NCBI RefSeq assembly: GCF_018598185.1
Contig: NZ_JAHESC010000013.1
Location: 1-64,000, forward strand
From: Dawidia soli
GTDB lineage: Bacteria; Bacteroidota; Bacteroidia; Cytophagales; Cyclobacteriaceae
Length of the DNA stretch: 64,000 nt
Reading direction: 5' to 3'
The notes below the pieces were generated by a model. The model was not told the DNA's origin. It saw only the letters and a list, made by a program, of their open reading frames with translations, and made no database searches. Within the stretch, counting starts at the first letter, position 1. The number at the start of each line of letters is the position of its first letter. Shown piece after piece: positions 23,491 to 45,923 of the stretch. The position numbers and the translations under genes are program-made.

Positions 23491-26400
23491 TTCTTCCACC
23501 GGTGTACCCGCACCCTGCATCAACCTGGCGATCTTCTGCTTCAGCTTCCTGGACTCGATCGGTTTTGTAATGTAATCATCCATTCCCGCCGCTTTGCACT
23601 TGTCGGCTTCGCCGGGGTTGGCGTTGCTGGTAAACGCAAGAATGGGCACGCGTTCCAATCCCTGCATTGCGCGGATATGCCGGCTGGCCGTATAGCCATC
23701 CATCACCGGCATTTTAATATCCATTAAAATGATATCCACCACATGGTGCTCCAGCTTTTCGAGCGCGACCTGCCCGTTGTCCGCCACAATAACCTGTGCG
23801 TTGGTAATGATCTTCTTGAGTATCTCTTCGGCCACCACCTGGTTGAACAACGTGTCTTCCACCAGCAATATGCGCAGGTCGCTCAGGCTCACGGTATCTT
23901 TGTCCTCTTCCTGTACAGACGCATCGCATCGCTGAAAAGGTAGCGTAAACCGGAACGTGGTTCCCTCCTGGAGCTTACTGGTCACGGTCATGGAGCCACC
24001 CTGTTCTTCCACCAGCTTTTTGGCAATGAACAACCCCAGGCCTGTGCCGGCGTGCTGGAGGTTCAGCTCGTCTTCGATGCGCGAGAAGGTCTCGAAAATA
24101 TAGTGCAGCTTATCCTCGGCGATGCCGATGCCGGAGTCGCGCACGGCAAACGACAGGACCACGTGGCTTTCGTTCGATTCCACCGGGCTCACGGTCACCG
24201 ACACATGTCCCTTCTCGGTAAATTTGATGGCGTTGCCGACGAGGTTGAGCAGGATCTGGTGCAGCCGCAGCGGATCGCCGATCAGCTGCTGCGGTATGGA
24301 AGCGTCCACCTCCATCGACAGCGCTATATTCTTTTCATCCGCCAATACCCCCACCATCGCGTGCAGCCTGTGTATCCGCTCCCGGAGCTGGAACGGCTTC
24401 TGCACAAACGAAAATTTACCGGCCTCGATCTTGGAGAAATCCAGGATGTCGTTGATGATGGCAAGCAGATTTTCAGAAGAGTATTTAATGCCCTTTGCAT
24501 ATTCCATCTGTTGCAGCGTCAGCGGCGTGTCGAAGATCAGCTCGGACATGCCGACGATGGCCGTCATGGGCGTTCTGATCTCGTGACTCATGTTGGCAAA
24601 GAACTGCTCCTTGAATTTAGACTTCTGTTCCACCAGTTGCTTCTGTCTTTCGATCTCCTCCTTTTGCACCTGTATCTCCGCCGTGCGCTCCTGCACCTTT
24701 TGCTCGAGGTTTTCATACAGAATGGAATTCTCTATCGATACCGCGATCTGGCCGGAAAGGAGCTTGAGCAGCTCCACCCGGTCTTTGGTAAATACGCCGG
24801 TCGTGAGGTTATTCTCGAGGTACAACGCGCCCACGAGCTTGCCCTGGTTCAGGGCCGGGATACAGAGCGCTGAACGAACACGATGCTTCATCACGGCGGC
24901 ATCGTGCGCGAACACCGGGTCGAGCTGCGCATCGGCCAGCACCACGTCTTCCTTCGACCGGAACACATGCTCCACGATCTGTTGGGGGATAAGGTCCGAC
25001 TCCGCCAGGGGGATTTGAAGCCTGGCGCTTTTCTGATCGTTCACACTCTGCCTGGCCTCGATATAGAGCTTGCCGCTCCAGTCGAGTATAAAATATCCGG
25101 CCTGGGCACCGGCGTTCTCAATCACGAACTTCATGAGCTTATCCAGCAACTGATCGAACACCACCTCGCTCGAAAGCGCGGTAGAGGCTTTCATGATCGT
25201 GGCAATGTCCAGCGAAGGCATGACATGGCCTGACGACGTCTGTTCGTCCGCAAGATTGTACCTTTCCCTTTGCTCTTCCAGGTGTTTCACCTTCAGCGTG
25301 CAGCCCCATTTTTTATAGGCGTCGAGGGCGCTGGTCAGGTAGATCCGCTCCATATGTTTTTGCCCTTTTTCTTTCCAGCACGCTGCCGCCAGCTCGTGCG
25401 CCAGCGCCTCGTGTTGTATATAGTTGCTGCGTTGTGCGGCCTGAATGGCCTGATCATACAGTGTCAGCGCCTGGTCTTTTTTCCCCGTCACGCGGGCATG
25501 CTCGGCTTCTGCCAGCAACGACAGATGCGCGCAATTGACAGGCACCTGGCTCGCCCACTTGTTGATCTTGCGCGTATAGGCTTTGCCCTGTCGCAGATCC
25601 CTGGCCTGGGCCGATTGACGGTAGGCCGCGAAGCGCAGCAGGGCGGCGTAGAAGTAGAACATCGCTTCCAGGATCTGCCCCCGGGAATAATGGAGGTACC
25701 GCCTGGCATGGGCGATGTGGTTCTTGCCGCCGGCGTAATCCCCGACAAAATAGCACAGCATCATCTTAAAGACATAGCAGGCAAAGAGCTTGGAAGGTTT
25801 GTTGGCGCGGAGGATCTCGGCAAAGCCGGTTCCCTCGTCGAAATACTTTCCCGTCAGCACCGTCGGGTCGTCATTCTCATTCCCCAGGTTGGCCACGAGT
25901 TGAATAAGCGCGTCGTTGCCGTACGAGGCGTCGTTCATTCGCAACGCAGGGGGCAGGATGTTACACCGCAGCATTTCTTCTTTTACCCACCACAGGCTCT
26001 TGCCCGACAGGCACAAAAGCATACAGTAGCCGTTGGACGCGTACGTGGCGTACTCCACGTCGCCCAGGTCGCTGGCATTCTTAAAACACCGTTTCAGCTC
26101 GTCCAGCGACTCGTGCACATGCTCGTGCGACGGCCGGTTGATCAGGTTATAGATCAGCAACGTGCGCGCGCCAATGCCGGCATCCGTGTTCTTTTCGAGC
26201 AACGTAAGCGCCGCTTTGCCGAACCGGTAGCAAACACCGTTGTTTGTTTCGATGCCGTTCACCATCGCTCCGTACGTAGCGTAGGCCAGCGGCGACTCGG
26301 TCGCGCTGCCGTACGTTACCGAAAGACGCATCATCTTGAGCACCAGCAGCGGATAGAGACCGGGCGCATTGTGGTAGGCCACGGCACTGATGCTTTGCAT

Positions 26401-29094
26401 GATCCGCATGGCCGCCAGCATACCCTCATCCACCATCGCAGGCAAGCGCGGCAGGTCCTCCACGGTGTGGCGGCGCAACGTCCATTTGATACCGGCATAG
26501 GCCAGCAATAAACGAGCGGTGGAATACGAAGCGGGAAACGTTACCTTCAACGACCGCAGTACCTGCAGCCCAAGAGCGATCGCTTCGCTGTTCCGGCATT
26601 GAAATACGAGCGCCTGGATCTGTATTTCCTGTATCCGGATCTTTTCGCCCTCCGTTTTTACCTGACCGAGCGCACGCCCGAGCAGCGCCTCCGATGCTTC
26701 ACGATCGTGCGCCAGGTAGGCCGCTTCTCCCCCGCCTACATGCAGGGAAAGGCAGAGCGTATAATCCGTAGCCCAGGCGGTATGGTTCAACAGCGCCAGG
26801 CCTGCATCGTAGTAGGTATACGCTGCGCGGTATGCCGTGGTCTGCTTTGCTTTCCGGCCCGCCCGCAGGTTGATGCCGGCCAGGGTACATCGCGCCGCGG
26901 CCTCGGTGATCAGCGCGCTCCCCAGGTTGAGGTGATGGACGATGTCAAAAAGCTGACGATCCACTTCGTCGTCGCGCAGCTTGTCGAGCAGGAAATATCC
27001 AATAGTCAGGTGAAGCTCCTGTTGCTCGCGGGGTGGTATCAGCGCACAGGCCGCCTGCTGCACCTGGTCGTGAAAGAATATGTACCGCGTTCTGGGCAGC
27101 AGGGTGTCGGGGCTCCTGGTCGCCGGGGCCGGCAGGATCAGGTTTTCCTGCAAGGCTTCCTTCAGGTCATCCGCCGCTTCATGGTCGGTCTTGTCCATCA
27201 GCGCGGCGAGCATCGACAGGTCGAACTGGCGGCCGATGCAGGCACCATATACAAGCGCCTGCTGTGTTACCCGCGGCAGCCGCAGGATGCGTTCCGTGAT
27301 CAGCTCCAGCGACGTGCTCGCGCGGGAGTGATGCATGATGTTTTCCATACACCACGTCCAACGTTGTGTATCCGGATTGAACGTGATGAGCGATTTCTTG
27401 CGGAGCTCCTGCAACCGCTCGGAAATAAACAGCGGGTTGCCCAGCGTACCCGTCAGCAGGTAATCGGCCAGCGGGCGGGTAAGGTGGGTATTGCTGGCGA
27501 GCGTGTCGGCCAGCAAACGGCACACTTCCTCCAGCGTAAGTGGCAAGAGCCGGAGGTGCTGAAAATTTTCCGGCGCATGCTGGGTTATTGTCTGTAACAT
27601 CACTGCCAGCGGACCGTTGGCGTGCACTTCGTTATCGCGATAGGTTCCTACCACCAGCACATGCCGCGTACAGGACGTGCAAACAAGCATCTGAAGCAGG
27701 TCGAGACTGGCCGCGTCGGCCCATTGCAGGTCGTCGAGAAGAATGACCAGCGGCCGTTGGCGCGTAGCCGTCGCTTCTATAAATTTCGCGAACGTGGCCG
27801 TTACCCGCTTTTGCGCATCTGCCGGGGCGAAGCCAGCGGCACGTTGGCGCTCGCCAAAGAGTGACGCCAGCTCGGGGATAATGTCGGTGAGGATACCGAC
27901 CTCCGGCCCCAGCTGTGAAGCCACTGCATCCCGCCACGCCTGGAACGCTGGCTGATCTTCACGCAGCGCTGTGATCAACTCGCGGAACGCCAGCACCAGG
28001 ATGCCGAACGGTGTATGCCGGTTCCGTTCATCGCACTTCCCCGACAGAACAAGCTTGTCCTTCTGACGCAGGCGTTGGTGTATTTCTTTCATCACCGCCG
28101 ACTTTCCGATGCCCGAATTTCCATACAGCAGTATAAACTCGCTGTGCTGACCGATCCGGTCGAACGCCGCCAGGGCTTTGTTTATTTCCGTTTCACGCCC
28201 GTAGAGGTGTGTGTTGATCCGGATCGCATCCGTAAGCACATGCGCATCGGGCGTGAACAGGCGAACATGCCCCTCGATCGTGTATTGCCTGTAACATTCC
28301 TGAAGATCGAGCCTCAGGCTTCTCGCATTTTTATACCGGTCGTCCGGCTTCTTTTGCAGGAGCTTCGCGATGATCTCCGAGACGACAGCCGGTAATGCGG
28401 CATTTACAGCGGCAGCGGCGGCGGGCTGCTTGGCGATATGCGCATGGACCAGCTCGTTGATATCGGTCTGCTCGAAAGGCAGTTTGCCCGTGAACATACG
28501 GTACAGCGTGATGCCCAGCGAATAAAGATCCGAGCGATGGTCTTCCGCCATTTCTGTCCGGCCCGACTGCTCCGGAGAAATATATTCAAGCGCCGTTTCG
28601 AATTTGCGCGCCAGGTTCGGGGGCTTGCCGGCGGACAATGCATGGACCGCCACACCAAGATCCCAAAGCGTTACCGACAACGTATCGGTATCGATCAGAA
28701 CATTGGCCGGCCGGATGTCGCGATGCAGTATTACATGGCTGTGGAGCTCCTCCACCAGCCGGGCCAGCTGCACACTGATCTGCAGCGCATCCGCAAGCGA
28801 CGGCCGGTGGTGGGCCAGGTAGCTTTCCAATGTAACACCGCGCACGCACGCCATTTCCAACAGCACCAGATTATCGACATTCAACTTGTCGAGGATGGGC
28901 ACCATGCAGTCGGACGTAAACCCGGGCCGGAGGGAGAGCTCGTTATCGAGCTCGCGCACAGCGTCGGAGGACGTATACGACGGCAGCTTTAAGAGCACGC
29001 TGACGCCGTCAGCCGTGCGTTCTGCCCGGAATAATGCCTTTGAGGGATCCTTGAAAAGCACTTCTAAACACTTGTAGCCTTGAATGGATGTCAC
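23479..29094 (-). CDS. Giant hybrid sensor: Ser/Thr kinase-like, AAA ATPase, GAF, histidine kinase, receiver
   Basis: An 1871-residue cytoplasmic sensor. Order: protein-kinase domain (about 10-265; catalytic HRDIRPANVLID, with DLG in WDLGVA replacing DFG, and YISPEQSG); AAA_16 predicted ATPase (P-loop YGNSGIGKS near 328, Walker B LVILLDDLQWAD near 448); a long helical TPR-like region (about 750-1240); GAF (about 1310-1455; LCIPALNQGKLVGALYLEN); coiled coil; HisKA (SHEIRTPM near 1505); HATPase (LLNLVGNAIKF near 1618; GTGLGLFIAKKL); receiver (ILLVEDTLFNQ, MDIKMPVMDG near 1790). No signal peptide or membrane segment is seen. The AAA-linked kinase/histidine-kinase architecture is a known class of large hybrid sensor; the ligand is unknown. 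Final phosphotransfer probably uses the neighbouring Hpt and regulator. Confidence 0.95.
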   Translation of the reverse strand: MTSIQGYKCLEVLFKDPSKALFRAERTADGVSVLLKLPSYTSSDAVRELDNELSLRPGFTSDCMVPILDKLNVDNLVLLEMACVRGVTLESYLAHHRPSLADALQISVQLARLVEELHSHVILHRDIRPANVLIDTDTLSVTLWDLGVAVHALSAGKPPNLARKFETALEYISPEQSGRTEMAEDHRSDLYSLGITLYRMFTGKLPFEQTDINELVHAHIAKQPAAAAAVNAALPAVVSEIIAKLLQKKPDDRYKNARSLRLDLQECYRQYTIEGHVRLFTPDAHVLTDAIRINTHLYGRETEINKALAAFDRIGQHSEFILLYGNSGIGKSAVMKEIHQRLRQKDKLVLSGKCDERNRHTPFGILVLAFRELITALREDQPAFQAWRDAVASQLGPEVGILTDIIPELASLFGERQRAAGFAPADAQKRVTATFAKFIEATATRQRPLVILLDDLQWADAASLDLLQMLVCTSCTRHVLVVGTYRDNEVHANGPLAVMLQTITQHAPENFQHLRLLPLTLEEVCRLLADTLASNTHLTRPLADYLLTGTLGNPLFISERLQELRKKSLITFNPDTQRWTWCMENIMHHSRASTSLELITERILRLPRVTQQALVYGACIGRQFDLSMLAALMDKTDHEAADDLKEALQENLILPAPATRSPDTLLPRTRYIFFHDQVQQAACALIPPREQQELHLTIGYFLLDKLRDDEVDRQLFDIVHHLNLGSALITEAAARCTLAGINLRAGRKAKQTTAYRAAYTYYDAGLALLNHTAWATDYTLCLSLHVGGGEAAYLAHDREASEALLGRALGQVKTEGEKIRIQEIQIQALVFQCRNSEAIALGLQVLRSLKVTFPASYSTARLLLAYAGIKWTLRRHTVEDLPRLPAMVDEGMLAAMRIMQSISAVAYHNAPGLYPLLVLKMMRLSVTYGSATESPLAYATYGAMVNGIETNNGVCYRFGKAALTLLEKNTDAGIGARTLLIYNLINRPSHEHVHESLDELKRCFKNASDLGDVEYATYASNGYCMLLCLSGKSLWWVKEEMLRCNILPPALRMNDASYGNDALIQLVANLGNENDDPTVLTGKYFDEGTGFAEILRANKPSKLFACYVFKMMLCYFVGDYAGGKNHIAHARRYLHYSRGQILEAMFYFYAALLRFAAYRQSAQARDLRQGKAYTRKINKWASQVPVNCAHLSLLAEAEHARVTGKKDQALTLYDQAIQAAQRSNYIQHEALAHELAAACWKEKGQKHMERIYLTSALDAYKKWGCTLKVKHLEEQRERYNLADEQTSSGHVMPSLDIATIMKASTALSSEVVFDQLLDKLMKFVIENAGAQAGYFILDWSGKLYIEARQSVNDQKSARLQIPLAESDLIPQQIVEHVFRSKEDVVLADAQLDPVFAHDAAVMKHRVRSALCIPALNQGKLVGALYLENNLTTGVFTKDRVELLKLLSGQIAVSIENSILYENLEQKVQERTAEIQVQKEEIERQKQLVEQKSKFKEQFFANMSHEIRTPMTAIVGMSELIFDTPLTLQQMEYAKGIKYSSENLLAIINDILDFSKIEAGKFSFVQKPFQLRERIHRLHAMVGVLADEKNIALSMEVDASIPQQLIGDPLRLHQILLNLVGNAIKFTEKGHVSVTVSPVESNESHVVLSFAVRDSGIGIAEDKLHYIFETFSRIEDELNLQHAGTGLGLFIAKKLVEEQGGSMTVTSKLQEGTTFRFTLPFQRCDASVQEEDKDTVSLSDLRILLVEDTLFNQVVAEEILKKIITNAQVIVADNGQVALEKLEHHVVDIILMDIKMPVMDGYTASRHIRAMQGLERVPILAFTSNANPGEADKCKAAGMDDYITKPIESRKLKQKIARLMQGAGTPVEESGW

Positions 29095-29252
29095 GATGTC
29101 TATACTAAAATAGAATACTTATTACCCCTGCCACCGGCCCAATCGGGCCGTGCGACAACCAAAGATACTCTCAGACCAAACGCGTGATTCCATTTTTATA
29201 TCTTTTTATACTTTTTAAGGGATCGTTAAAAATTCGTCTCTCCGGCGTGCTT

Positions 29253-29260
29253 TATCTTTG
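29253..29260 (+). promoter_or_regulatory. -7 box TATCTTTG of the monooxygenase operon
   Basis: A TAnnTTTG match 31 bp before the monooxygenase start, in an AT-rich stretch. No clear TTG lies at the normal upstream distance. Confidence 0.5.
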
Positions 29261-29291
29261 TAGCATAATCAGAAAAAAACCCTTCAGGTAT

Positions 29292-30545
29292 ATGAGAAAA
29301 ATTGCCATTATGGGCGCGGGCCAATCGGGTCTGCACCTCGCGATCCGGTTGTTGAAGCACGGCTACCAGGTTACCGTCATCTCCGAGCGCACGGCCGAAG
29401 AGATCTTCAACGGCCCGCCCACCGGCGGCACCTACCTTTTCAACGACAGCATCACACTGGAGAAAGAGCTCGGCATCGACATGTGGCGCGACACCGCCTA
29501 TCATTCCACCGGCTTCAATATGAACTTCGGCACGCCCGACGGGCAATTTGCCTTTGGCATCCAGTCCAAACTGGACCGGCCGGGTGTATCGATCGATCAG
29601 CGTCTGAAGTTCTATCAATGGATCAAATATTTCGAGAAGCAGGGCGGGAAGTTTATCGTGAGTCCCACCACGCCGTCCGACCTGCTGGCCTGCACGGAGG
29701 CATTCGACCTGGTCATCGTTTCCACCGGCAAAGGCCCGCTGGCGAAGCTGTTTGAGCGGGATGCCGAAAAGTCGACCTGGGACAAACCCGCGCGCAAGCT
29801 CGTACAACTGCACATCAATGATTTTGCCGACCGTGAAAAGACCCGGTTCAATTCGATCACGCTGTGCAAGGTGATGGGCGCGGCCGAGATCATTACGAGC
29901 GCGTTTTATCATAAAGACGATATACAATGTGCGTGGGTGCTGCTGGAGATCGTTCCCGGAGGGCCCATGGATGTATTCGACGACGTGCAGGGCGGACCGG
30001 CGTTGCTGCAGCGCACCAAAGAAGTGATCAAGCAGTTTATGCCGTGGCAATACCAGTCGTTTGACAACGCGGCCCTCATCAGCAACGATGCTTACCTCAA
30101 GGGAGCATTCGTGCCCACGGTACGGAAGCCGGTTGTCCAGCTCAACTCCACCGCGCGGGTGTTAGGCCTGGGCGACACCGTGATCTTAAACGACCCCATC
30201 GTCGGACAGGGCGGGAACAATGCATCGAAAATGGCAAACACCTATGGCAATGCCATCCTCGAGCACGGCCACCGGCCTTTCGATGCCGATTGGATGAACG
30301 ATACCTTCGACAAATTCTGGCAGTATTCGAAGTATGTCAATAAGTTTTGCGATATCATTCTGTCACCCCCCGAACCGCATATCGTCGATCTCCTCGGTGC
30401 AGCGGTGCAGAACAAGGCAATAGCATCAGACATCGTCAACGGTTTTAACCACCCGCCGTCGCTCTTCCCGTGGCTGGCCGATGCAGACGCCGCCCAACGG
30501 TACCTCGAAACAAAACAACAGCGTGTAGCCGAACCCATCCTCTGA
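29292..30545 (+). CDS. StyA-type (styrene/indole) FAD-dependent monooxygenase
   Basis: A 417-residue single-component flavoprotein of the styrene/indole monooxygenase family: Rossmann FAD motif IMGAGQSGLHLAIRLL, then RTAEEIFNGPPTGGTYLF, FGTPDGQFAFGIQSKLDRPGVS split around the substrate pocket, and GLGDTVILNDPIVGQGGNNASKMA as the second FAD site. These enzymes use FADH2 from a separate reductase (StyB); none is encoded next to it, so a reductase must come from elsewhere in the genome. The ATG at 29292 gives the canonical N-terminus. A methyltransferase gene lies 100 bp downstream, and the pair may tailor a small aromatic metabolite. Confidence 0.88.
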   Translation: MRKIAIMGAGQSGLHLAIRLLKHGYQVTVISERTAEEIFNGPPTGGTYLFNDSITLEKELGIDMWRDTAYHSTGFNMNFGTPDGQFAFGIQSKLDRPGVSIDQRLKFYQWIKYFEKQGGKFIVSPTTPSDLLACTEAFDLVIVSTGKGPLAKLFERDAEKSTWDKPARKLVQLHINDFADREKTRFNSITLCKVMGAAEIITSAFYHKDDIQCAWVLLEIVPGGPMDVFDDVQGGPALLQRTKEVIKQFMPWQYQSFDNAALISNDAYLKGAFVPTVRKPVVQLNSTARVLGLGDTVILNDPIVGQGGNNASKMANTYGNAILEHGHRPFDADWMNDTFDKFWQYSKYVNKFCDIILSPPEPHIVDLLGAAVQNKAIASDIVNGFNHPPSLFPWLADADAAQRYLETKQQRVAEPIL

Positions 30546-30563
30546 TATTTTACCCAGTTGAAC

Positions 30564-30607
30564 GGCATGTGCGACGATGTGTATCGTTGCATCGGCACCG
30601 CCATGCC
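30564..30607 (+). promoter_or_regulatory. Intercistronic hairpin between monooxygenase and methyltransferase
   Basis: An inner 9-bp stem (30570-30578 with 30583-30591, one G-U-type mismatch, loop GTGT), capped outside by GGCATG/CATGCC (30564-30569, 30602-30607) with a 10-base bulge. No T-run follows. It may set a differential mRNA level or protect processed ends. Confidence 0.4.
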
Positions 30608-30645
30608 TTAGAAAATAAAATTCAATAATAAACCCCCTCAATAAA

Positions 30646-31626
30646 ATGGAATTACAAGTAAATCCTTTCATTTCGCGCGAGAGCGCAAACGACTCGTTGG
30701 GCGTATACATCACCGAGAGCTTCCCGACCGTTGGATCAGCATCGGAGATCAAGGCGCAACTGCAAGCGCTTGTCGAAAAAGGAGGCCCCGATCTAAAAGA
30801 TTATACCAAACTCGATCAGACCATGGCGACGCTATATGCGCACTGGCAGTACGGACGCCTCTCGCAGCGGGAAATAGAAGATCTGAAAAGCGTGTTCCAT
30901 GACAGCTTCCTGAACGCTACGATACACGGCCACGCATACCTCAAACCTTTCGGCTATGCCGGTGATTTTTTATTGATCGATAAGATCTATACGCATCATC
31001 ACGCCAGACTGGCCGAATACAAAAAATGGGATCGGTATTTCCATTACTGCGAAGCGACCGAAGCTGTCCGCAACAGGAAAGAATACTTCAAAAAGCTCAT
31101 GCTGAAAAAATTGAGCGCGGCCACCACACCGCTACAGCTTCTGGATGTGGCCAGCGGTCCGGCACGGGATGTACAGGAGCTTTACGGGACGATCGACCCG
31201 AAAACATTGTCGACCACGTGTGTCGATGTAGACGCCCGCGCCATTGATTATGCCACCGACCTTTGCAAAGCACACACCGGGCAGATCCGGTTTGTCCACA
31301 AGAACATTCTTCGATTCTCTACACCGGAGAAGTTCGACGTGATCTGGTCCGCCGGACTATTCGACTATTTCGAAGACAGGATCTTTGTTACGTCCATCAA
31401 AAAGTTCCTGACCTGGCTCAAGCCTGGCGGCGAGATAATCGTCGGCAATTTCTCCGAAGACAACAGCACCCGCGGGTACATGGAAATGTTCGGCGAATGG
31501 AACCTGATCCATCGCAGCAAAGAAGAGCTGACACGCCTCGCGCTTTTAGCCGGCGCCCGGGAAGAAAACATTCACGTAGAGCAGGAACCGCTCGGCATCA
31601 ACCTGTTCCTGCGCATCACCGCCTGA
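30646..31626 (+). CDS. Class I SAM-dependent methyltransferase
   Basis: A 326-residue methyltransferase. The C-terminal half has the SAM-binding motif LLDVASGPARDVQELYG, acidic motif II TTCVDVDARAIDYA and post-motif FDVIWSAGLFDYF. The N-terminal half carries HAYLKPFGYAGDF, a signature I associate with methyltransferases annotated for extracellular-factor (hydroxypalmitate methyl ester, PhcB-like) synthesis; that link is from memory and weak. It follows the StyA-type gene on the same strand with a hairpin in between, and has its own terminator. Confidence 0.87.
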   Translation: MELQVNPFISRESANDSLGVYITESFPTVGSASEIKAQLQALVEKGGPDLKDYTKLDQTMATLYAHWQYGRLSQREIEDLKSVFHDSFLNATIHGHAYLKPFGYAGDFLLIDKIYTHHHARLAEYKKWDRYFHYCEATEAVRNRKEYFKKLMLKKLSAATTPLQLLDVASGPARDVQELYGTIDPKTLSTTCVDVDARAIDYATDLCKAHTGQIRFVHKNILRFSTPEKFDVIWSAGLFDYFEDRIFVTSIKKFLTWLKPGGEIIVGNFSEDNSTRGYMEMFGEWNLIHRSKEELTRLALLAGAREENIHVEQEPLGINLFLRITA

Positions 31627-31664
31627 TAACAGACGATCCTTTTTTCTGGAGGCTTTAATCCCCT

Positions 31665-31701
31665 GGGCCTTGACGCACATACCGTCAGGGCCCTGTCTTT
31701 T
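31665..31701 (+). terminator. Terminator of the monooxygenase/methyltransferase operon
   Basis: An 11-bp stem (31665-31675 with 31683-31693, one G-U pair), 7-base loop, then TGTCTTTTT. It lies 38 bp after the methyltransferase stop. Confidence 0.75.
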
Positions 31702-31742
31702 ACCGCATATTATACCCTATCGCACCACCGCTACACATTCGT

Positions 31743-33014
<1,272 letters not shown>

Positions 33015-38083: not shown

Positions 38084-38995
38084 TCATAGGGTCAGGTGTA
38101 GCCTGATCTTGAATAACCTGCTTTCGCCTTTGTCATTGTCGGAAACGAGGTGTATCAGCAGGCCATCTGGCGCTACCGACTCGACACAGATGCCCTCCAC
38201 TTTTTCGTTTTTAAAACAAGTATTAACGTCGCTGAGATTTATTAGTTGATCAAGCTGGACCGGGCATTCTTCCCGTAGCATGGCGGTTGCTCCTGACAGC
38301 AGGCCGATAAAACTATCGCCAATGGCGCCGTCATCAAAGCTGTTGGATGTGTTTTCGGTCGATAATGTCAGGAGCAGCAGGTCCAGCTCGTGCACGTAAC
38401 ATAGTTCGGAGACGCCTACGAACTGGCCGGCAGTTTTGGTGGGGAACGATATGGGGCGCGCGGAAATAAATACCTGTTCCTGATCTTCCCAAAAATTGGG
38501 ACGTGTTCTGATCAGGTGATTTTCGGGATGCTCGTGATTACCCCGGTTCGCCAGCAAGAGATGATCTTCGACAACGGTTACGCCTTCCAGGTTTGTTTCT
38601 TCGATCCCTAAAGACTCCAATCGTTTCACAAATGTTTTTGTCTTGTAGATCGTGTGCTCTACTGACGGTGTGTCGGATGCAGACAACGGAATGAGCAATA
38701 TGCGTCTTCTGTTCTTGCGCGAGGCTGAACCAATGACCAATACATGGGGAACCCCTTCGCTGGTGATGATGGTTGAGCCCTCCAGATCGATCTTGTCGGC
38801 CTTCGGAATACGTTTTTCGGTGTGGTCGAAGAGATGAACGGAACCCATCTTCTGATAAGCATGGTCCAACACGAGCAGATTTGTCGAGTCGTCTCCGACA
38901 ACAAAAAATCTTCCCGTATGATAGTTAATGGAAGACCCTGAAGGAAAATCTGACAAAAGCACGGTTTTCAAAAATTCGATACTAATCTCCTGCAT
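38084..38995 (-). CDS. Predicted beta-propeller protein, DUF6929/SdiA-regulated-like
   Basis: A 303-residue protein without signal peptide. Repeating beta-strand blocks (SSINYHTGRFFVVGDDSTNLLVLD, VEGICVESVAPDGLLIHLVSDND) and the segment ETNLEGVTVVEDHLLLANRGN recall esterase-like phytase/SdiA-regulated propellers and the DUF6929 proteins of Bacteroidota. I start at the ATG at 38995; a GTG at 39019 is possible. It follows the ebo cluster on the same strand but is separated by a hairpin, so membership in that operon is doubtful. Confidence 0.7.
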   Translation of the reverse strand: MQEISIEFLKTVLLSDFPSGSSINYHTGRFFVVGDDSTNLLVLDHAYQKMGSVHLFDHTEKRIPKADKIDLEGSTIITSEGVPHVLVIGSASRKNRRRILLIPLSASDTPSVEHTIYKTKTFVKRLESLGIEETNLEGVTVVEDHLLLANRGNHEHPENHLIRTRPNFWEDQEQVFISARPISFPTKTAGQFVGVSELCYVHELDLLLLTLSTENTSNSFDDGAIGDSFIGLLSGATAMLREECPVQLDQLINLSDVNTCFKNEKVEGICVESVAPDGLLIHLVSDNDKGESRLFKIRLHLTL

Positions 38996-39027
38996 ACGCT
39001 CATTAAGATTTAATACCACGAGTTCAG

Positions 39028-39087: not shown

Positions 39088-40440
39088 CTATATGCCCAGA
39101 TAATCGCCGATGACGTCGTATACTTCTACGGGCATCAGTTCCTTTTTAGCCAGGGCTTTGTCGGTGATCAGCACCGGGTGCGCCGAGACGGGTGTATTTA
39201 CCCGGCCGTGCGAGCCTTTGATGAGCGTGGCATCCAGGGGAATTACATCCATGACGTAGCGCAGTGCCGCTTTTTTACGCAGCAACTTGTAGGCTGCGCG
39301 CAGCTTGGAGGACATGAACATTTCTACGGGGTCGTAGCCAGGTTTCTTAAAGATTTCGACCGACCGCGCGAAATCCGGTGCTTTGCTGTCGTCCATCCAA
39401 TAATAGTAGCAAAACCAGCTGCGGGCATCGGCCATGAGCACCAGGTCGCCGGAGCGTTCGTGATCGATGTGGTAAGCCTTTTGTTCCTGCTTGTCCAGCA
39501 CGAGCTCTACACCGGGGATCTTTTCCACCACGCTTTTAACTTTGCCGACCAACGCGGAGTCCTTTATATAAATATGCGCGATCTGGTGGTCGGCTACGGC
39601 AAAGGCTTTAGAGGCCCCTGCATCGAGCAGCTCCAGGCCACGCTCTACGCGGATACCCAGCCAGTTATTTTCGCGCAGTACGCGGTTGATGTACACAGGT
39701 TGATCGACGTTGGTAATGCCATACTCGGACAGCAGCATGATGCGTGCCCCTGCTTTGGTATAATGCGTCACGAGCTGTTCCACTACCCGGTCTATTTCCC
39801 CGAGCTCTTTGGCGATGCGGTGGAAATCCTGTCCAAACTTCTGCAAGCAGTAGTCGAGGTGTGGCAGGTAGACCAGTGTGAGCGTGGGATTATACTTTTT
39901 GTCGGTGATCACCGAGGCGTCGGCGATCCATTGCGTGGACTTGATGTTGGCACCGGGTCCCCAGAATTGGAACAGCGGGAAGGTGCCGAGCTCTTTTTGC
40001 AGCTCATCGCGCAGCGCGGCTGGTTCCGAATAGCAGTCGGGCATCTTGCGGCCGTCGGCCAGGTAGTTGGGCCGTGGTGTGACGGAGTAATCGGCGGTGG
40101 AGTACATATTATACCACCAGAACATTTTGGAAGTGGTGAACGTGGGATCGAGACGCCTGGCCTTGTCCCAGATCTTCTCGGCCTGCACCAGCTTGTTAGA
40201 CTGCTTCCAGAACTTGATTTCCGAGTCGGTGTGATCGTACCAGCCATTGCCTACGATGCCGTGCTCGCTGGGCCATTTGCCAGTCACGTAGGTAGACTGC
40301 ACCGCCGTAGTCACCGCGGGCAGCATCGGCGCGATGGTCTGTACGAAGTTGGCTTGTGTATATTTTTTGAGGAACGGGGTGTGGTCGCCGATCAGGCCGG
40401 TGGACAGCCCCACGATATCGATCACTACGGTTTTCTGCAT
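39088..40440 (-). CDS. eboF: EboF, alkaline phosphatase-superfamily nucleotide pyrophosphatase-like protein
   Basis: A 450-residue protein of the type I phosphodiesterase/nucleotide pyrophosphatase family. It begins QKTVVIDIVGLSTGLIG, followed by the nucleophile region LPAVTTAVQSTYVTGKWPSEHGIVGNGW (Thr/Ser after PAVT), and metal ligands in YLPHLDYCLQKFG, LLSEYGITNVD and SAHPVLI. The usual DGL metal motif near the N-terminus is altered to DIVGL, so activity may be modified. It is the last gene of the ebo cluster, 4 bp after eboE. The role in metabolite traffic is known only genetically in other organisms. Confidence 0.9.
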   Translation of the reverse strand: MQKTVVIDIVGLSTGLIGDHTPFLKKYTQANFVQTIAPMLPAVTTAVQSTYVTGKWPSEHGIVGNGWYDHTDSEIKFWKQSNKLVQAEKIWDKARRLDPTFTTSKMFWWYNMYSTADYSVTPRPNYLADGRKMPDCYSEPAALRDELQKELGTFPLFQFWGPGANIKSTQWIADASVITDKKYNPTLTLVYLPHLDYCLQKFGQDFHRIAKELGEIDRVVEQLVTHYTKAGARIMLLSEYGITNVDQPVYINRVLRENNWLGIRVERGLELLDAGASKAFAVADHQIAHIYIKDSALVGKVKSVVEKIPGVELVLDKQEQKAYHIDHERSGDLVLMADARSWFCYYYWMDDSKAPDFARSVEIFKKPGYDPVEMFMSSKLRAAYKLLRKKAALRYVMDVIPLDATLIKGSHGRVNTPVSAHPVLITDKALAKKELMPVEVYDVIGDYLGI

Positions 40441-40444
40441 GTCT

Positions 40445-41656
40445 TTACGCTTTATTGATAAAACTGATCACCCACTCCATTTCGCGCAGGATGGATTCGG
40501 ACAAGGGCGCTTTGAGTGCCTCGGGTAATACTTCCCAGGTATAGGTTTCTACTTCCAGGTGGCCTGTAAAGGGTGTAGCCCCCTGGATCGTCAGCACCTG
40601 CCGGATATCTTCTTGTGTGGAACGCAGCAGCCCGTAATCCTGGATGAACAGGGGTACGTGAAAGTGCGAGCGCCAGGCGCGTGTACCGGCGTTGCCGGCA
40701 TCGGCCAGCGCTTCGGGCAAGTCGGGATAACGCCTGAGCGTGCCGTCGTCCTGGCGGGCCACCACCTGGTGTAAATATGTCGATTCGTTAAACTGGCGGA
40801 AGGCCTGTATGACGGCGGCTCGTTTGTCTTTATCGGCTGGCATGTCGGCTTTCAGCGCCGCGCTGATCTGGATCTTGCCTGTTTTGATCTTCTTTTCGCG
40901 CAGTTGCCGCACGACGGTGGCGTGATCTTCATATCCTACGGCAAAGTGACACACGTCGTAGCAGAGCTGCAGGTGGTCGCGGATGGCTGTTTCTGCCGCG
41001 GCGGCGTCCATGCCGGCGTGCGCCTGCAGATACGTCTTGCCCATCGGCAGCAGGTATTGATCGTACCAGTCAAAGAACTCCGGGCCGCTTTCCAGCAGTC
41101 CATCGGGTTCTGGCTCGATGTCCAGGTGCAGCAGCTTGCCGGTGTCGCGGCGGATACCGACCAGGTGACGAACAACGTCCAGGATCTGTCCCGTGGTCTT
41201 TTTAAAGACTTCGGGATATTGCGTGGCAGGATGCCAGTATTTGTAGGACAGCGGCGAAGTAGAGATACCACCTTCCATGCCAGCAGGGACGAGCTCTTTC
41301 AGGATATCAAACAGCCGTATCGTGTAGGCCAGGCGTTCGGGCGTGGTCCAATCGGGCGCATGTACCTGGTCTTTTACGTGGGTGTGGTGAAAGCCTCCGT
41401 AGGGAAAACCGTTCATGGTAAACACGTAGCAGTCTTCCTGGCGCAGCCAATCCTGGAACGCACGCAAGGCGTCGGGCTGCTGCAACGTAAGGCTGGCCTG
41501 ATGTGACAAGCGCAGCCCGATGCCGAAGGGGGCGTCGGCGCGGATGCGTTTTTTGATGCCGGGTATATTCTGCCGGAGCGCTGCGAAGTGATCTTCCCAG
41601 CTTTCGCCGGCATGTATATTGGTACAGTAGGTCAGATGTCCCGCCGATGTCTGCAT
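40445..41656 (-). CDS. eboE: EboE, metabolite traffic protein (TIM-barrel, xylose isomerase-like)
   Basis: A 403-residue TIM-barrel protein of the EboE family. It opens HLTYCTNIHAGESWEDHFAAL, the family hallmark. Later come FTMNGFPYGGFHHTHVKDQV, LHLDIEPEPDGLLE, YDVCHFAVGYED and KTGKIQISAAL, which match metal- and phosphate-binding loops of sugar-phosphate isomerases. It starts 5 bp after eboD and ends 4 bp before eboF. Enzymatic activity is unproven. Confidence 0.92.
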   Translation of the reverse strand: MQTSAGHLTYCTNIHAGESWEDHFAALRQNIPGIKKRIRADAPFGIGLRLSHQASLTLQQPDALRAFQDWLRQEDCYVFTMNGFPYGGFHHTHVKDQVHAPDWTTPERLAYTIRLFDILKELVPAGMEGGISTSPLSYKYWHPATQYPEVFKKTTGQILDVVRHLVGIRRDTGKLLHLDIEPEPDGLLESGPEFFDWYDQYLLPMGKTYLQAHAGMDAAAAETAIRDHLQLCYDVCHFAVGYEDHATVVRQLREKKIKTGKIQISAALKADMPADKDKRAAVIQAFRQFNESTYLHQVVARQDDGTLRRYPDLPEALADAGNAGTRAWRSHFHVPLFIQDYGLLRSTQEDIRQVLTIQGATPFTGHLEVETYTWEVLPEALKAPLSESILREMEWVISFINKA

Positions 41657-41661
41657 GATCG

Positions 41662-42810
41662 TTACTTTTTATTCTTCAGCCATTCGCTGGCTTGTTGTAT
41701 CAGCGCGCCATCCATTTCGTGTACTTCTTCGCCTTGGCCGATGCCCTTGAGGAGTGTGATGGTGAGCTTGCCGCCGAGGTGCTCGCGGAATTCTTCGAGG
41801 CCTTTGAGCAGCGGGCTGTTGTCGCCGGTCACTTCCAGCAGCGGGTGCGTGATGGGCAGCCCCAGCGTTTCAATCACCTGCAGGATCTGATCCATTGCCT
41901 CGCGCGTGAGTCGTCCGCTCAGGTGTGAGTATACTGTGTCGAGGGCGATGCCGATGGCCACCGCCTCGCCGTGGCGGATGTTGAACTTCGCGAGCTGCTC
42001 AAGCTTGTGTGCACTCCAGTGGCCAAAGTCGAGCGGGCGTGACGAGCCCTGCTCAAACGGGTCGCTGCTGCGGATGTGCTGCATGTGCAGGTCGGCGCAA
42101 TGCTTTACCAGGTATTGCATGGCGGGCATATCGCGTTGGGCGAGCTTCGCGGCATTGTCTACCAGCCAGTGAAAGAACGTGGCATCCTTGATGAGCGCCA
42201 CCTTGATGGCTTCGGAGATGCCGGAACGCCAGTCCACGTCGCTGAGCGTCGTCAGAAAATGATAGTCGTTAAACACGGCGACGGGTGGAGCAAACGTGCC
42301 GAGGAAATTTTTCTTCGTATAAAAGTTGATACCGTTCTTCACGCCCACCCCGGAGTCGTTTTGCGACAGCACCGTAGTGGGTATACGGATGTGGCGTATG
42401 CCGCGGTGCGATACCGCGGCGGCGTAACCGGCCAGGTCGAGGATAGAGCCTCCGCCGATGGCGACGAGGTATGAATGCCGGTCGATCTTATAATCGTTTA
42501 CGGCATCGACGATCTTGTAAAACAATTTCTCGTCGTTCTTGGCTGCTTCACCACCGGGGATGATGACTACGTCCTCCACCAGGTGCACGTTGGCAACGGT
42601 CTTGAAATAGGCTTTGATGTCTTCGATCAGGCGCGGGTGATGCGCGAGTACCTGGTCGTCGAGCACAACGAGTACCTTGGGTGGGATCTCGGATCGTTTT
42701 TCGACGGTTAGAAAGTCCCGGAAGCCGGGATTTTCGGTGCTGAAAAGATGTGTGGTAAAAAATACTTTGTAATCGAACCGGACACTGAACGACTGCTGCA
42801 AAAACTCCAT
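41662..42810 (-). CDS. eboD: EboD, 3-dehydroquinate synthase-like sugar phosphate cyclase
   Basis: A 382-residue homologue of AroB and the epi-valiolone synthases. NAD-binding AIGGGSILDLAGYAA, the DSGVGVKNGINF loop (catalytic Lys retained) and the three zinc ligands in SGISEAIKVALI, DFGHWSAHKLE and RHGEAVAIGI are all present, so it should be an active cyclase. The ATG at 42810 is preferred; the longer frame to 42912 runs into the intergenic region. The 141-bp gap after eboC is the only long gap in the cluster. It is probably not the housekeeping AroB. Confidence 0.92.
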   Translation of the reverse strand: MEFLQQSFSVRFDYKVFFTTHLFSTENPGFRDFLTVEKRSEIPPKVLVVLDDQVLAHHPRLIEDIKAYFKTVANVHLVEDVVIIPGGEAAKNDEKLFYKIVDAVNDYKIDRHSYLVAIGGGSILDLAGYAAAVSHRGIRHIRIPTTVLSQNDSGVGVKNGINFYTKKNFLGTFAPPVAVFNDYHFLTTLSDVDWRSGISEAIKVALIKDATFFHWLVDNAAKLAQRDMPAMQYLVKHCADLHMQHIRSSDPFEQGSSRPLDFGHWSAHKLEQLAKFNIRHGEAVAIGIALDTVYSHLSGRLTREAMDQILQVIETLGLPITHPLLEVTGDNSPLLKGLEEFREHLGGKLTITLLKGIGQGEEVHEMDGALIQQASEWLKNKK

Positions 42811-42951
42811 AGATAGGTCCCCCTCCCTTAATGAGGCGCTAAAAATAGGAAAAATCAGCGTCCCCCGATTTACCGTCCACGGCAAAATCCAGCGACCCAC
42901 GGCCAACGGCACAGAAAGGGCGTATTTGCCGTCAAAAAGAGGCCTTTGGGC

Positions 42952-43848
42952 TTATGTAACGGCAAACAGCCTGGCCAGTACAATCGACACCGGCAGCAGC
43001 AAAGCAATGCCTATGGCCAGGAAAATGGCTCCCATCGCGGCGGCCCAACTGGCATTCATGATGATCAATGCCAGCACGCCGGCTTTGACGGCCTTGCCGA
43101 TGTTGGGGCCGATGGGCTCGTGAAAGGCACGAACCAACGGCGGAAAGATCAATGCGATGAACAGCGCAAGGAATGCGAGGGCGTAATAGGCCTGGTGGGT
43201 GATCGACAAGGTGGCGATGGCTACGATGACAACCGCGTATAAACCGGCTGCAGCAAGAATGGTGTTGCTTTTGCCGCCGTGTACTTCGCCACGGCTGATC
43301 ATGGTGATGGCGGCAATATACAGTATTGGAAAAAGGGGAACGATGGTCAGGAAGCCCACGTGTGTGATCGTTTCCGGTAGCAGGGTCATGCCCAGCAAGA
43401 GGTTGAGGCCCCGGCAGAGGCCCATGTTCAACGGCCCCAGAACGTTGTGGTGTTTGCCCCACTTGTCATACACCAGCGCCGCCGTTGCAATGGCAACGGC
43501 AATGGCTCCCGAAAGAGGCGAAAACATAAAGGCCGCTCCGATGCCGCCGATCAGCAGGATGCTGCCGAGCAACGCGCCTTCCTTCACGGAGATCAACCCG
43601 CTGGGGATGGGCCGCTCGGGACGTTCTACCCGGTCGAGCGCGGCGTCAAACACATCGTTGAACACTACGCCGCCGCCATACAGCCCGATGGTGGAAAGGA
43701 TCAGCCAGCCCAGCGACAGCGATGAAGACGGGTGCTGGTCACCCATTCCGGCATATCCCACGAGGGCCGCACCGGCCAGGATATCCGACACGGCGGTAAC
43801 GATATTGGCCGGGCGCATGAGGCGCAAATAGCCCGTAGGTTTTTTCAT
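42952..43848 (-). CDS. eboC: EboC, UbiA-like prenyltransferase
   Basis: A 298-residue integral membrane protein of the UbiA superfamily, with about eight or nine hydrophobic helices. The first Asp-rich motif is NDVFDAALDRVERPERPIPSG (NDxxD type). The second conserved region, DKWGKHHNVLGPLNMGLCRGLN, is less typical, which is usual for EboC. In other ebo clusters it is thought to modify or move a lipophilic precursor at the membrane. The start follows the eboB stop by 1 bp. Confidence 0.93.
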   Translation of the reverse strand: MKKPTGYLRLMRPANIVTAVSDILAGAALVGYAGMGDQHPSSSLSLGWLILSTIGLYGGGVVFNDVFDAALDRVERPERPIPSGLISVKEGALLGSILLIGGIGAAFMFSPLSGAIAVAIATAALVYDKWGKHHNVLGPLNMGLCRGLNLLLGMTLLPETITHVGFLTIVPLFPILYIAAITMISRGEVHGGKSNTILAAAGLYAVVIVAIATLSITHQAYYALAFLALFIALIFPPLVRAFHEPIGPNIGKAVKAGVLALIIMNASWAAAMGAIFLAIGIALLLPVSIVLARLFAVT

Positions 43849-43849
43849 G

Positions 43850-44836
43850 TCAGCGGATGATGAGCGAATCTTTGTCTACCCGGGGCTGCTGGCCGCCGCG
43901 CAGTACGGTGTTGCCTTCGAACTTCTGGCTTTGATCGATCTGTTGCGCGCCGGCAAAATCAGCTTCGTTCAGCTGACCGCTCTGACCAAAGGCTGCGATG
44001 GCATTTTTATAGGTAACAAGTTGAATGGCCTCGTCGGAGATGCCGTGTTGTTTCATCAGCGCGGCGGTCTTGGGCACGGCCAGCGGATCGCTGATGCCCC
44101 AGTCGGCGGCGGAGTTGATCATGATGCGCTCGGGGCCATATTTCTTTACAACCTCTACCATGCGTTCGTTGCCCATCTTGGTAAAGGGGTAAATGGTGAA
44201 CGCTGCCCAGAAGCCGCGCTCCAGCACCTCTTGTACCGTCTCTTCGTTGTTGTGATCGATGATGACTATGCCGGGGGCGAGCCCGCAATCCAGGGCGATG
44301 TCCATGCTGCGTTGGGTGCCGCGTTTTTTATCGCGGTGCGGTGTATGTACTTGTACCGGCAACGACGCTTCTTTTGCTAGCAACAGTTGCGCGCGGTAGA
44401 ATTTTTCTTCGGCGGCGGTCTGATCGTCAAAGCCGATCTCGCCTATGCCCACCACGCCTTCTTTGTAAATAAACAGCGGCAGGATCTCCATGACCTGCTC
44501 GGCGAGCGGTTCGTTGTTGGCTTCGCGTGAATTGAGGCCGATGGTGCAATAATGTTTGATCCCGAACTGTGACGAGCGGAAGCGCTCCCAGCCGATGAGG
44601 CTGCTATAATAATCTTTAAACGTCGCCACCCCGGTGCGCGGCTGCCCCAGCCAGAAGGCGGGCTCGATCAGCCCCACCACGCCGGCGTCGGCCATGGCCT
44701 GGTAGTCGTCGGTTGTGCGCGAGGTCATGTGCACGTGCGGGTCGAAGAATTTCATGCCTTTGATGCTCTCGAGGTACAGGGGCATGTCGACGCGAGGCTC
44801 CAGATTTCTTTCGGATAGTTCGTGACTGCTGCACAT
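43850..44836 (-). CDS. eboB: EboB, TatD-like metal-dependent hydrolase
   Basis: A 328-residue amidohydrolase-fold protein. It carries the metal-binding FFDPHVHMTSRTTDDY, GIGEIGFDDQT, LPVQVHTPHRD and IIDHNNEETV, with the late Asp in NSAADWGISDP. The core starts at about residue 28 (MKFFDPHVH), so ATG codons at 44836 or 44785 could each be the real start. TatD homologues are nucleases or lactonase-like hydrolases; in ebo clusters the substrate is not known. It is 1 bp from eboC. Confidence 0.92.
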   Translation of the reverse strand: MCSSHELSERNLEPRVDMPLYLESIKGMKFFDPHVHMTSRTTDDYQAMADAGVVGLIEPAFWLGQPRTGVATFKDYYSSLIGWERFRSSQFGIKHYCTIGLNSREANNEPLAEQVMEILPLFIYKEGVVGIGEIGFDDQTAAEEKFYRAQLLLAKEASLPVQVHTPHRDKKRGTQRSMDIALDCGLAPGIVIIDHNNEETVQEVLERGFWAAFTIYPFTKMGNERMVEVVKKYGPERIMINSAADWGISDPLAVPKTAALMKQHGISDEAIQLVTYKNAIAAFGQSGQLNEADFAGAQQIDQSQKFEGNTVLRGGQQPRVDKDSLIIR

Positions 44837-44890
44837 AAGGATGTGGTTTAAAGATTCAAAGTTCAGGATTCAGGATCGAATATTCAAGGT

Positions 44891-45787
44891 TCATTGCGCG
44901 AGTTTGTCCCACGTCGCGCCGCTGTCGAGGATGGCTTTGAGATCGACAGCTTTGTCTACGAGCTCACGGGCAGGCTTATAGTTACTCTGTGCACAGGCAA
45001 GGGCTGCGGCTTCGCGCTCGGCATTGACTTCGGAATACGCAATGCGTTGTATGTCGGGGAAGATCCGCTCGTCGATGAAATTGCCGATGCAACGCCACAG
45101 CATGGGTGGCACCGGGCGGTGTGCGGCCCAGCGTTCATGCGCAAAGTCCGACAGCGTATGGGCCAGTGTTTGATTGGCGCGGGCGTCGAGACCGACGATG
45201 CGGTGGATGGGCTTTTCGGTAAAGATGGCTTTCAATACCAGTTGGTTCCACGCCGGCTCGTCGAGGTTTTCGGAGGCATAGGGATTGTCGCACATGATCG
45301 ACTCCAGCACGTCGCCGATGTTGTTGCGAATGCCTTCGGCGCAACGCGCACGCCACGCGGCGGGATAGGCCAGCAGCGGCAAGGCCGAATATAGTGCTAC
45401 CAGCTCGTTCATCTCGGCGGTGGGGAAGAGATTTTCGATGGTGGCGATATACTGCTCTTTGTCGGTGGTATCGAGGTGCAGCATCAGCCACACGCGGCTA
45501 AGCCGGTCGATGGTCCAGTGACGGATCGTTAATCCGGGCCGGATCACTTGCAGCGCGGACTGTTCAGCTTCAGAAAGGGTCAGGGGTTTCTTGCCCGTCT
45601 TGCGTGGCATGGCTGAAAAGCCTATCACAAATTGTTGGATGTTCCCGGCTTTTGAAACCAGCGATGCGCGTTCCTCTAACCAGGTCCAGGCGTCCGCGGG
45701 CAACTGATTGCGTAAATGCGTGGCCAGTGCGGCCCGGAGCTTTTCTACATCGTAGGTAATTGTGGCGTGTTCTATCTTCTCTTCCAT
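44891..45787 (-). CDS. eboA: EboA domain protein
   Basis: A 298-residue soluble helical protein with the EboA pattern: AWTWLEERAS, FVIGFSAMPRKTGKKPL, LSRVWLMLHL, LPLLAYPAAWRARCAEGIRNN, CDNPYASENLDEPAWNQLVLKAIF and IVGLDARANQTLAHTLSDFAHERWAAHR. It has no known enzymatic fold. It is the first gene of the cluster. I use the ATG at 45787 rather than 45796, because the -7 box at 45801-45808 puts transcription start near 45796. Confidence 0.9.
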   Translation of the reverse strand: MEEKIEHATITYDVEKLRAALATHLRNQLPADAWTWLEERASLVSKAGNIQQFVIGFSAMPRKTGKKPLTLSEAEQSALQVIRPGLTIRHWTIDRLSRVWLMLHLDTTDKEQYIATIENLFPTAEMNELVALYSALPLLAYPAAWRARCAEGIRNNIGDVLESIMCDNPYASENLDEPAWNQLVLKAIFTEKPIHRIVGLDARANQTLAHTLSDFAHERWAAHRPVPPMLWRCIGNFIDERIFPDIQRIAYSEVNAEREAAALACAQSNYKPARELVDKAVDLKAILDSGATWDKLAQ

Positions 45788-45800
45788 GGCAGGCATTGCA

Positions 45801-45828
45801 CAAAGCTAAGAAAACACGTTCAAAACAA
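45801..45828 (-). promoter_or_regulatory. Promoter of the ebo cluster (TTG-N17-TAGCTTTG)
   Basis: On the minus strand TTG (45826-45828), 17 bp, then TAGCTTTG (45801-45808). The match to TAnnTTTG is exact; the spacer is at the short end of the accepted range. It predicts an almost leaderless eboA mRNA. Confidence 0.55.
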
Positions 45829-45923
45829 ATACTGATAAATATCAACGTTCCCAACCCCGCGCAACTCATTGCCCATCAATGCCTGGAGAATATTTAAACA
45901 GAAGACAGTGTATCCCCGGGGCG

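Follow-up and report, generated by a model that had tools for sequence, protein, structure and literature searches.

What an ebo operon makes has been an open question since its description in 2016 (PMC5133447), and the question returns with a 64,000-nucleotide stretch of Dawidia soli (contig NZ_JAHESC010000013.1, positions 1 to 64,000), which is called the window here. Between 39088 and 45796 the window carries six intact open reading frames (ORFs), eboA to eboF in this order and all on the minus strand. The first-pass annotation of the sequence had described six ebo families in canonical order on one strand, spaced by 1–54 bp except for 141 bp between eboC and eboD. The six ORFs match by family models, the measured gaps from eboA to eboF (54, 1, 141, 5, and 4 bp) agree, and the locus is a true, complete ebo operon. 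With about an even chance of being right, the comparison described below favors synthesis of an isoprenoid-cyclitol lipid by the operon over an export function alone or the tailoring of an aromatic compound; the lipid would be a carrier or cofactor for the movement of hydrophobic metabolites. The isoprenoid-cyclitol proposal itself originates in PMC5133447. Provisionally new are the occurrence of myo-inositol-1-phosphate synthase (MIPS) together with a PF01261 protein in the absence of EboD, and the linkage of TMEM220 to ebo. The literature searched, in a limited search, did not mention TMEM220 or inositol phosphate synthase together with ebo, and PMC5133447 and PMC9235831 do not mention inositol.

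The evidence that carries this reading comes from Actinomycetota. Five Streptomyces plasmid ebo operons have an annotated inositol-3-phosphate synthase, a SCO3242-type prenyltransferase, and a sugar-phosphate-isomerase-like protein, and no 3-dehydroquinate synthase (DHQS). An EboD-type gene is present in the examined alphaproteobacterial, Mycetohabitans, and Aureibacter operons. Our Actinomycetota set consisted of the best 80 of at least 587 loci (EboE alignment led by a Nonomuraea protein) and seven plasmid loci, 87 in total; the 80 best loci all carry Actinomycetota names, and other phyla and Actinomycetota with a distant EboE lie outside this set. With three EboD queries, tblastn found EboD in none of the 87 ebo loci, and none of the 20 Actinomycetota ebo genomes searched whole had EboD over the cut-off, while all 20 had a PF07994 gene. 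Seventy of the 87 loci were testable, having an eboC homologue with at least 2.5 kb upstream of it; the other 17 were cut short or had no eboC homologue. MIPS was located upstream of the eboC homologue on the same strand in 57 of the 70 testable loci, in more than 20 genera by record title, at a distance between aligned ends of −21 to 761 bp (median 33 bp; below 100 bp in 42 of 57). A PF01261-type, isomerase-like TIM barrel protein was present in all 57 MIPS-linked loci. The Pfam identity of the linked MIPS, PF07994 with PF01658, was checked at one locus (L065).

The SCO3242-type ebo of Streptomyces, Micromonospora, and other Actinomycetota shares the EboA domain, EboB, a UbiA-type transferase, EboE, and EboF, but differs in having MIPS and the PF01261 protein where EboD is missing, and in its gene order. 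A fusion of actinobacterial EboA to a xylose-isomerase-like part is noted in PMC5133447. The enzyme that repeatedly replaces EboD is well understood biochemically, which restricts the possible chemistry to cyclitols. Because an unrelated cyclitol maker is found where EboD is missing, a pathway making its own isoprenoid-cyclitol is favored over the single unnamed cargo that the first-pass annotation had expected; that expectation is the less supported of the two, as no cargo-type gene was found to recur widely beside ebo.

A similar arrangement was observed in one Bacteroidota genome, G178, where eboA, eboB, eboC, eboE, and eboF are present in the order ABCEF with no eboD at the locus. The best that the EboD search found in the whole G178 genome was a match at the level of AroB (165 bits, cut-off 333). 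The same genome has MIPS and, 16 bp behind it, a gene for a PF01261 TIM barrel protein that is 44% identical over 275 amino acids (aa) to its Streptomyces ebo counterpart. Among the 10 ebo-positive Bacteroidota genomes checked, a PF07994 gene was present in two, G178 and the window's own genome. With the single-genome warnings given below, the G178 pair supports the interchangeability of EboD with MIPS plus isomerase.

EboD of the window passes NF004852 (570 bits, cut-off 333). The NCBI name of this model is 3-dehydroquinate synthase, an annotation judged unfounded in PMC5133447, which describes EboD as its own clade of sugar phosphate cyclases. EboD stays below the AroB model (TIGR01357 235 bits, cut-off 305) and has Asp in place of the DHQS active-site Asn, and a separate AroB-like gene is found in the window genome (G000:C56). 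In the motif alignment to solved structures, EboD reads LDFGHWSAH, the DHQ synthases LNLGHTFGH, and ValA VDFGHSFSP. The Asp occupies the DHQS Asn position in 56 of 57 EboD rows (the window was counted twice, and locus L159 contributes two rows), and the AroB-like protein of the window genome has Asn. The three positions that align with the DHQS Zn ligands (E, H, H), together with one Lys, were identical in all 57 rows. In line with the first-pass annotation, which had noted zinc and NAD residues, EboD is a sugar-phosphate-cyclase relative and a presumed cyclitol synthase. Its Asp fits a substrate other than 3-deoxy-D-arabino-heptulosonate 7-phosphate, and a C6 and a C7 sugar would both be compatible with it. 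Compared with the valiolone synthase ValA (4p53), EboD shows domain similarity and the same Asp at the DHQS Asn position, but it retains the second His of GHxxxH, which ValA does not have.

The other five proteins were compared with family models and structures. A search of all six against ebo hidden Markov models had been proposed, and its outcome was divided: C, D, and E pass curated models, A passes only a domain model, and B and F match only general families. EboA passed the EboA_domain model NF035938 (176 bits, cut-off 50) and stayed below the stricter subfamily model NF035937 (242 bits, 320 needed). Its AlphaFold2 model is all-helical with a predicted local distance difference test (pLDDT) score of 86, and all 277 PDB matches of the structure search were weak, with no E value of 0.001 or less. 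EboB matched PF01026 (58.8 bits, cut-off 27) as a TatD-like metal-dependent hydrolase, in which H34, H36, E133, H164, H195, and D245 are identical in at least 96% of aligned residues (54 rows). EboF matched PF01663 (194 bits, cut-off 23), the type I phosphodiesterase/nucleotide pyrophosphatase family; no match to EboB- or EboF-specific models was returned. EboC reached 390 bits with the equivalog NF035940 (cut-off 250) and 71 bits with the UbiA domain PF01040, and is a UbiA-like intramembrane prenyltransferase with an NDxxDxxxD motif, of which N64, D65, D68, and D72 are at least 96% identical (53 rows). EboE reached 503 bits with the equivalog NF035939 (cut-off 250), and its model (pLDDT 90) is a xylose-isomerase-like TIM barrel. 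Its Foldseek matches included the isomerase Art22, SCO6571, IolI, and AsbF, with E values of 9.7e-7 to 2.5e-5 at 10–12% identity; the value for the inosose isomerase IolI (1i60) was 2.8e-6. The modeled fold of EboE fits a sugar/cyclitol isomerase or dehydratase and leaves the reaction unfixed.

In Bacteroidota a further protein accompanies ebo. ORFs were clustered from 60 regions (54 Bacteroidota regions, the window, and five proteobacterial plasmids), and the sole non-ebo cluster clearly in register with ebo was TMEM220, PF15071 (80 bits for L163). Of the 55 Bacteroidota loci, 15 (in four families) have it next to ebo and always on the eboE strand; it immediately follows eboF in 10 of them and precedes eboA in four and eboE in one. 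Members of this family are also found in animals. A genome-wide check for genes co-occurring with ebo in Bacteroidota had been suggested from the sequence, and TMEM220 does co-occur. In the phylum sample it is present in 27 of the 35 genomes with EboE and 27 of the 357 without (Fisher p 6.6e-20), and in the family sample in 33 of 34 and 26 of 64, respectively (Fisher p 1.2e-8); both p values ignore relatedness. TMEM220 was found in three of nine EboE-positive genomes of family f24 and in 24 of 26 outside it. Of the 33 family-sample genomes having both, 12 have TMEM220 at most 50 kb from EboE. The TMEM220 family is common in genomes without ebo, and the copy of the window genome lies on another contig (G000:C48). 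TMEM220 is a candidate membrane partner of ebo, with an inferred role.

In the proposed pathway, a sugar phosphate would be converted by EboD to a polyhydroxylated carbocycle. The intermediates may be tailored or dephosphorylated by EboE, a TIM barrel of the sugar/inosose-isomerase type, and by the two hydrolases EboB and EboF; EboC would attach a prenyl chain in the inner membrane, and EboA could be a helical scaffold. The finished lipid would be a carrier or cofactor that moves or anchors a hydrophobic metabolite across the inner membrane, and in Bacteroidota the small membrane protein TMEM220 may often be involved alongside it. We infer the cyclitol substrate and product, the order of the steps, the carrier role here, and the role of TMEM220. 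A lipophilic product or an export role, already suggested in the first-pass annotation, fits PMC6282210 and PMC5133447. Each Nostoc ebo mutant studied, eboD not being among them, retains the scytonemin monomer in the cytoplasm (PMC6282210). According to the same source, Nostoc punctiforme ebo shares the EboA, B, C, E, and F families and the proposed export role, but its eboD lies apart and its cargo is the scytonemin monomer, whereas in the window eboD is inside the cluster. A fuller version would be that ebo makes an inositol-like (C6/C7) cyclitol-isoprenoid of a new carrier lipid class, in which EboD and the MIPS plus isomerase pair, though unrelated, lead interchangeably to one head group, and TMEM220 is the Bacteroidota membrane partner; taken as a whole, we regard this version as doubtful. 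If the isoprenoid-cyclitol reading is right, a lipid dedicated to small-molecule export is common to bacteria, cyanobacteria, and some plastids. EboD-type and MIPS-type strains are two kinds that can be compared by lipidomics.

Several observations weigh against an isoprenoid-cyclitol product. Actinomycetes need an inositol-phosphate synthase (PF07994) anyway, and the MIPS beside ebo might be a mere neighbor, a housekeeping Ino1 for mycothiol or phosphatidylinositol that is uninformative on EboD. Linked and unlinked Streptomyces MIPS mix in the tree (39 rows: 30 of 60 linked, 9 unlinked), so the linked MIPS may double as the housekeeping enzyme. Of 19 genomes with linked MIPS, 13 showed no second PF07994 gene; in one of these, G513, the single PF07994 gene lies in two pieces, and in two of the other six genomes the second match was only below the cut-off. 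Thirteen of the 70 testable loci, all Streptomyces, had no upstream MIPS; 12 of the 13 had a PF01261-type protein, and 12 of the 13 genomes carried a PF07994 gene elsewhere. Against a mere neighbor stand the same-strand, mostly close linkage in the 57 loci of more than 20 genera, the lack of EboD over the cut-off in all 20 genomes, and the MIPS–isomerase pair of the EboD-less G178 together with the presence of MIPS in only two of the 10 ebo-positive Bacteroidota tested. A bystander MIPS is therefore somewhat unlikely. G178 is nevertheless a single genome with its MIPS–PF01261 pair on a different contig from ebo, and the window genome carries both EboD and MIPS. The G178 MIPS is at most 39% identical to actinomycete MIPS and 41% to that of the window genome, and the MIPS tree joins the G178 and window copies on long branches apart from the actinomycetes; a transfer of actinomycete MIPS into G178 is unsupported by this tree. 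Eight of the 35 EboE-positive genomes in the phylum sample have no TMEM220, and the searches of Actinomycetota and proteobacterial ebo loci gave no match to it. Moreover, MIPS gives a C6 phosphate and the proposed EboD product is C7, so the rings need not match, and no metabolite was identified in the present analysis or in the cited papers.

The in-vitro acceptors found for EboC are also aromatic, and the operon could serve an aromatic secondary-metabolite pathway by tailoring and exporting its product, with EboC prenylating a quinoline- or indole-type metabolite directly. UbiA-297, the Maribacter EboC, and its homologues from Zobellia and Algoriphagus farnesylate 8-hydroxyquinoline-2-carboxylic acid in vitro (PMC9235831). 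The EDB cluster of Pseudomonas contains ebo (PMC6282210) and is linked to indole products in a review (PMC9655573). The assay section of PMC9235831 names only aromatic acceptors, of which 6 of 14 were converted, with none of the phenols or catechols among them. No aromatic-pathway gene was present among the identified recurrent neighbors of the 55 Bacteroidota loci, and the gene in the place of EboD makes a cyclitol and not an aromatic precursor. We consider an aromatic pathway unlikely. The common retention phenotype of every Nostoc deletion studied would suit Ebo proteins that form a cargo translocation complex and make no product of their own. However, five of the six are similar to enzymes, with acidic, basic, and histidine residues conserved, and the replacement of one of them in Actinomycetota by an unrelated enzyme of similar chemistry fits a pathway better, which leaves a pure complex with a low probability. 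That the window operon is a decayed, horizontally acquired remnant is very improbable; its occurrence is patchy and the lone same-genus genome sampled is without EboE, but its six frames are intact, its proteins are 63–88% identical to those of the nearest relative sampled, and its conserved residues are kept.

The distribution of ebo in Bacteroidota shows the window locus to be of the common kind. EboE was present in 35 of 392 genomes sampled from the phylum and in 34 of 98 sampled from the family; the only other genome of the genus sampled was G462. Regions were taken from 54 of the 66 other EboE-positive genomes of both samples, giving 55 loci with the window. Their gene orders were ABCDEF in 41, cbaDEF in seven, DEF in three, ABDEF in two, and EFABC and ABCEF in one each. 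ABCDEF was published in 2016 as the ancestral form in Bacteroidetes (PMC5133447). Since this order is found in 41 of 55 loci and was already in print, the window locus is an ordinary ABCDEF-type ebo operon, the expected Bacteroidota form. The ABCDEF ebo of Bacteroidetes, Cyanobacteria, Leptospira, and eustigmatophyte plastids has the same six families, order, and single strand, and no essential difference of the window from this type was seen (PMC5133447). At L208 (G179:C1:3566071-3567236), EboE is present as two overlapping pieces in different frames, which is a real split or a sequencing error.

The coordinates are collected in Table 1. The pattern TTTG-N17-TANNTTTG, which we take to be the Bacteroidota promoter consensus, was matched three times in the 64-kb window; the shuffles gave a mean of 0.9, and 6 of 100 shuffles gave three or more. 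As this count is weak, it is the position of the match and not the number that is the evidence. The match before eboA is a candidate for the promoter that had been placed just there in the first-pass annotation.

Table 1. Positions of the ebo genes, the promoter-like match, and the adjoining gene in the window.
Feature	Position	Strand	Remarks
eboA	44891-45796	−	301 aa
eboB	43850-44836	−	328 aa
eboC	42952-43848	−	298 aa
eboD	41662-42810	−	382 aa, MEFLQQ start; mechanical ORF extends to GTG at 42912
eboE	40445-41656	−	403 aa
eboF	39088-40440	−	450 aa
Bacteroidota-type promoter-like match, TTTG-N17-TANNTTTG	45801-45829	−	ends 4 bp before first eboA ATG
DUF6929 gene	38084-39019	−	PF22000; 68 bp after eboF; judged bystander

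The DUF6929 gene was considered as a seventh operon gene and rejected, being present in four of 34 EboE-positive and seven of 64 EboE-negative family genomes; it had no tblastn match in the other 54 Bacteroidota ebo regions. The same held for the window's other flanking genes (AAA_14/DUF4143, M19 peptidase, and a 470-aa protein) in these regions of up to about 20 kb each. In the nearest ebo relative sampled (G406), DUF6929 (L214 10355-11254) lies beside TMEM220 (G406:C10:783330-783641), away from ebo. In G462, two 20-kb stretches at or beside DUF6929 and one around TMEM220 matched no other window ORF tried; an empty ebo site was not found there, and G462 was never searched for the window's flanking genes.

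Pfam analysis of 24 non-ebo window ORFs (the four flanking ones and 20 others) revealed no recognizable biosynthetic cluster near ebo; they include peptidase, chloride channel, glycosidase, kinase, and similar genes. The closest genes that could loosely be considered for a cargo pathway are monooxygenase-like, methyltransferase, and esterase genes at 29184-32993, about 6–10 kb from ebo, and the earlier remark that no obvious cargo biosynthesis genes lie within 10 kb is in agreement with the scan. Adenylation-domain ORFs resembling nonribosomal peptide synthetases were recognized by eye within about 8 kb of ebo in five of 55 Bacteroidota loci (L162, L163, L167, L169, and L195) and not at the window locus. 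No cargo gene was found to recur widely beside ebo, the adenylation ORFs occurring in only five of the 60 clustered regions. Two further clusters stood at scattered places on both strands: one of mixed content that includes the DUF7133 protein of L067, in 10 of 60 regions, and one resembling TonB-dependent outer-membrane proteins, in 8 of 60.

Other loci gave minor observations. A common stand-in for MIPS was sought in the 13 Streptomyces loci without it; the ORFs of nine of these were scanned (several as stop-to-stop approximations) and shared nothing. Among these loci, L111, L119, and L136 have CrtO-like flavin adenine dinucleotide (FAD) oxidoreductases, far under the cut-off, and L116 has iron-alcohol-dehydrogenase-like and YceI-like ORFs. 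On three Streptomyces plasmids, a ScyD/ScyE family gene is located just upstream of the MIPS-type ebo (L065 5725-6927, L072 5140-6339, L076 5203-6402) and a multicopper oxidase downstream of it; by tblastn, the ScyD/ScyE family gene is present in four of the 87 Actinomycetota loci. In Nostoc, the proposed substrate of ScyE is the scytonemin monomer after its export (PMC6282210). The ebo set of Ketogulonicigenium vulgare WSH-001 is complete except that eboC is annotated as two overlapping pieces (L067 7684-8531). EboD is preceded there by two Gfo/Idh/MocA oxidoreductase genes (L067 3285-5331); this family includes inositol dehydrogenases, and the observation is in line with cyclitol chemistry. 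On the Mycetohabitans (L068 6573-7631) and Aureibacter (L069 8960-10228) plasmids, a ferritin-like gene preceded by a hypothetical gene lies directly upstream of ebo. In the window itself, positions 23479-29094 encode a 1871-aa protein with protein kinase, AAA ATPase, GAF, histidine kinase, and response regulator domains.

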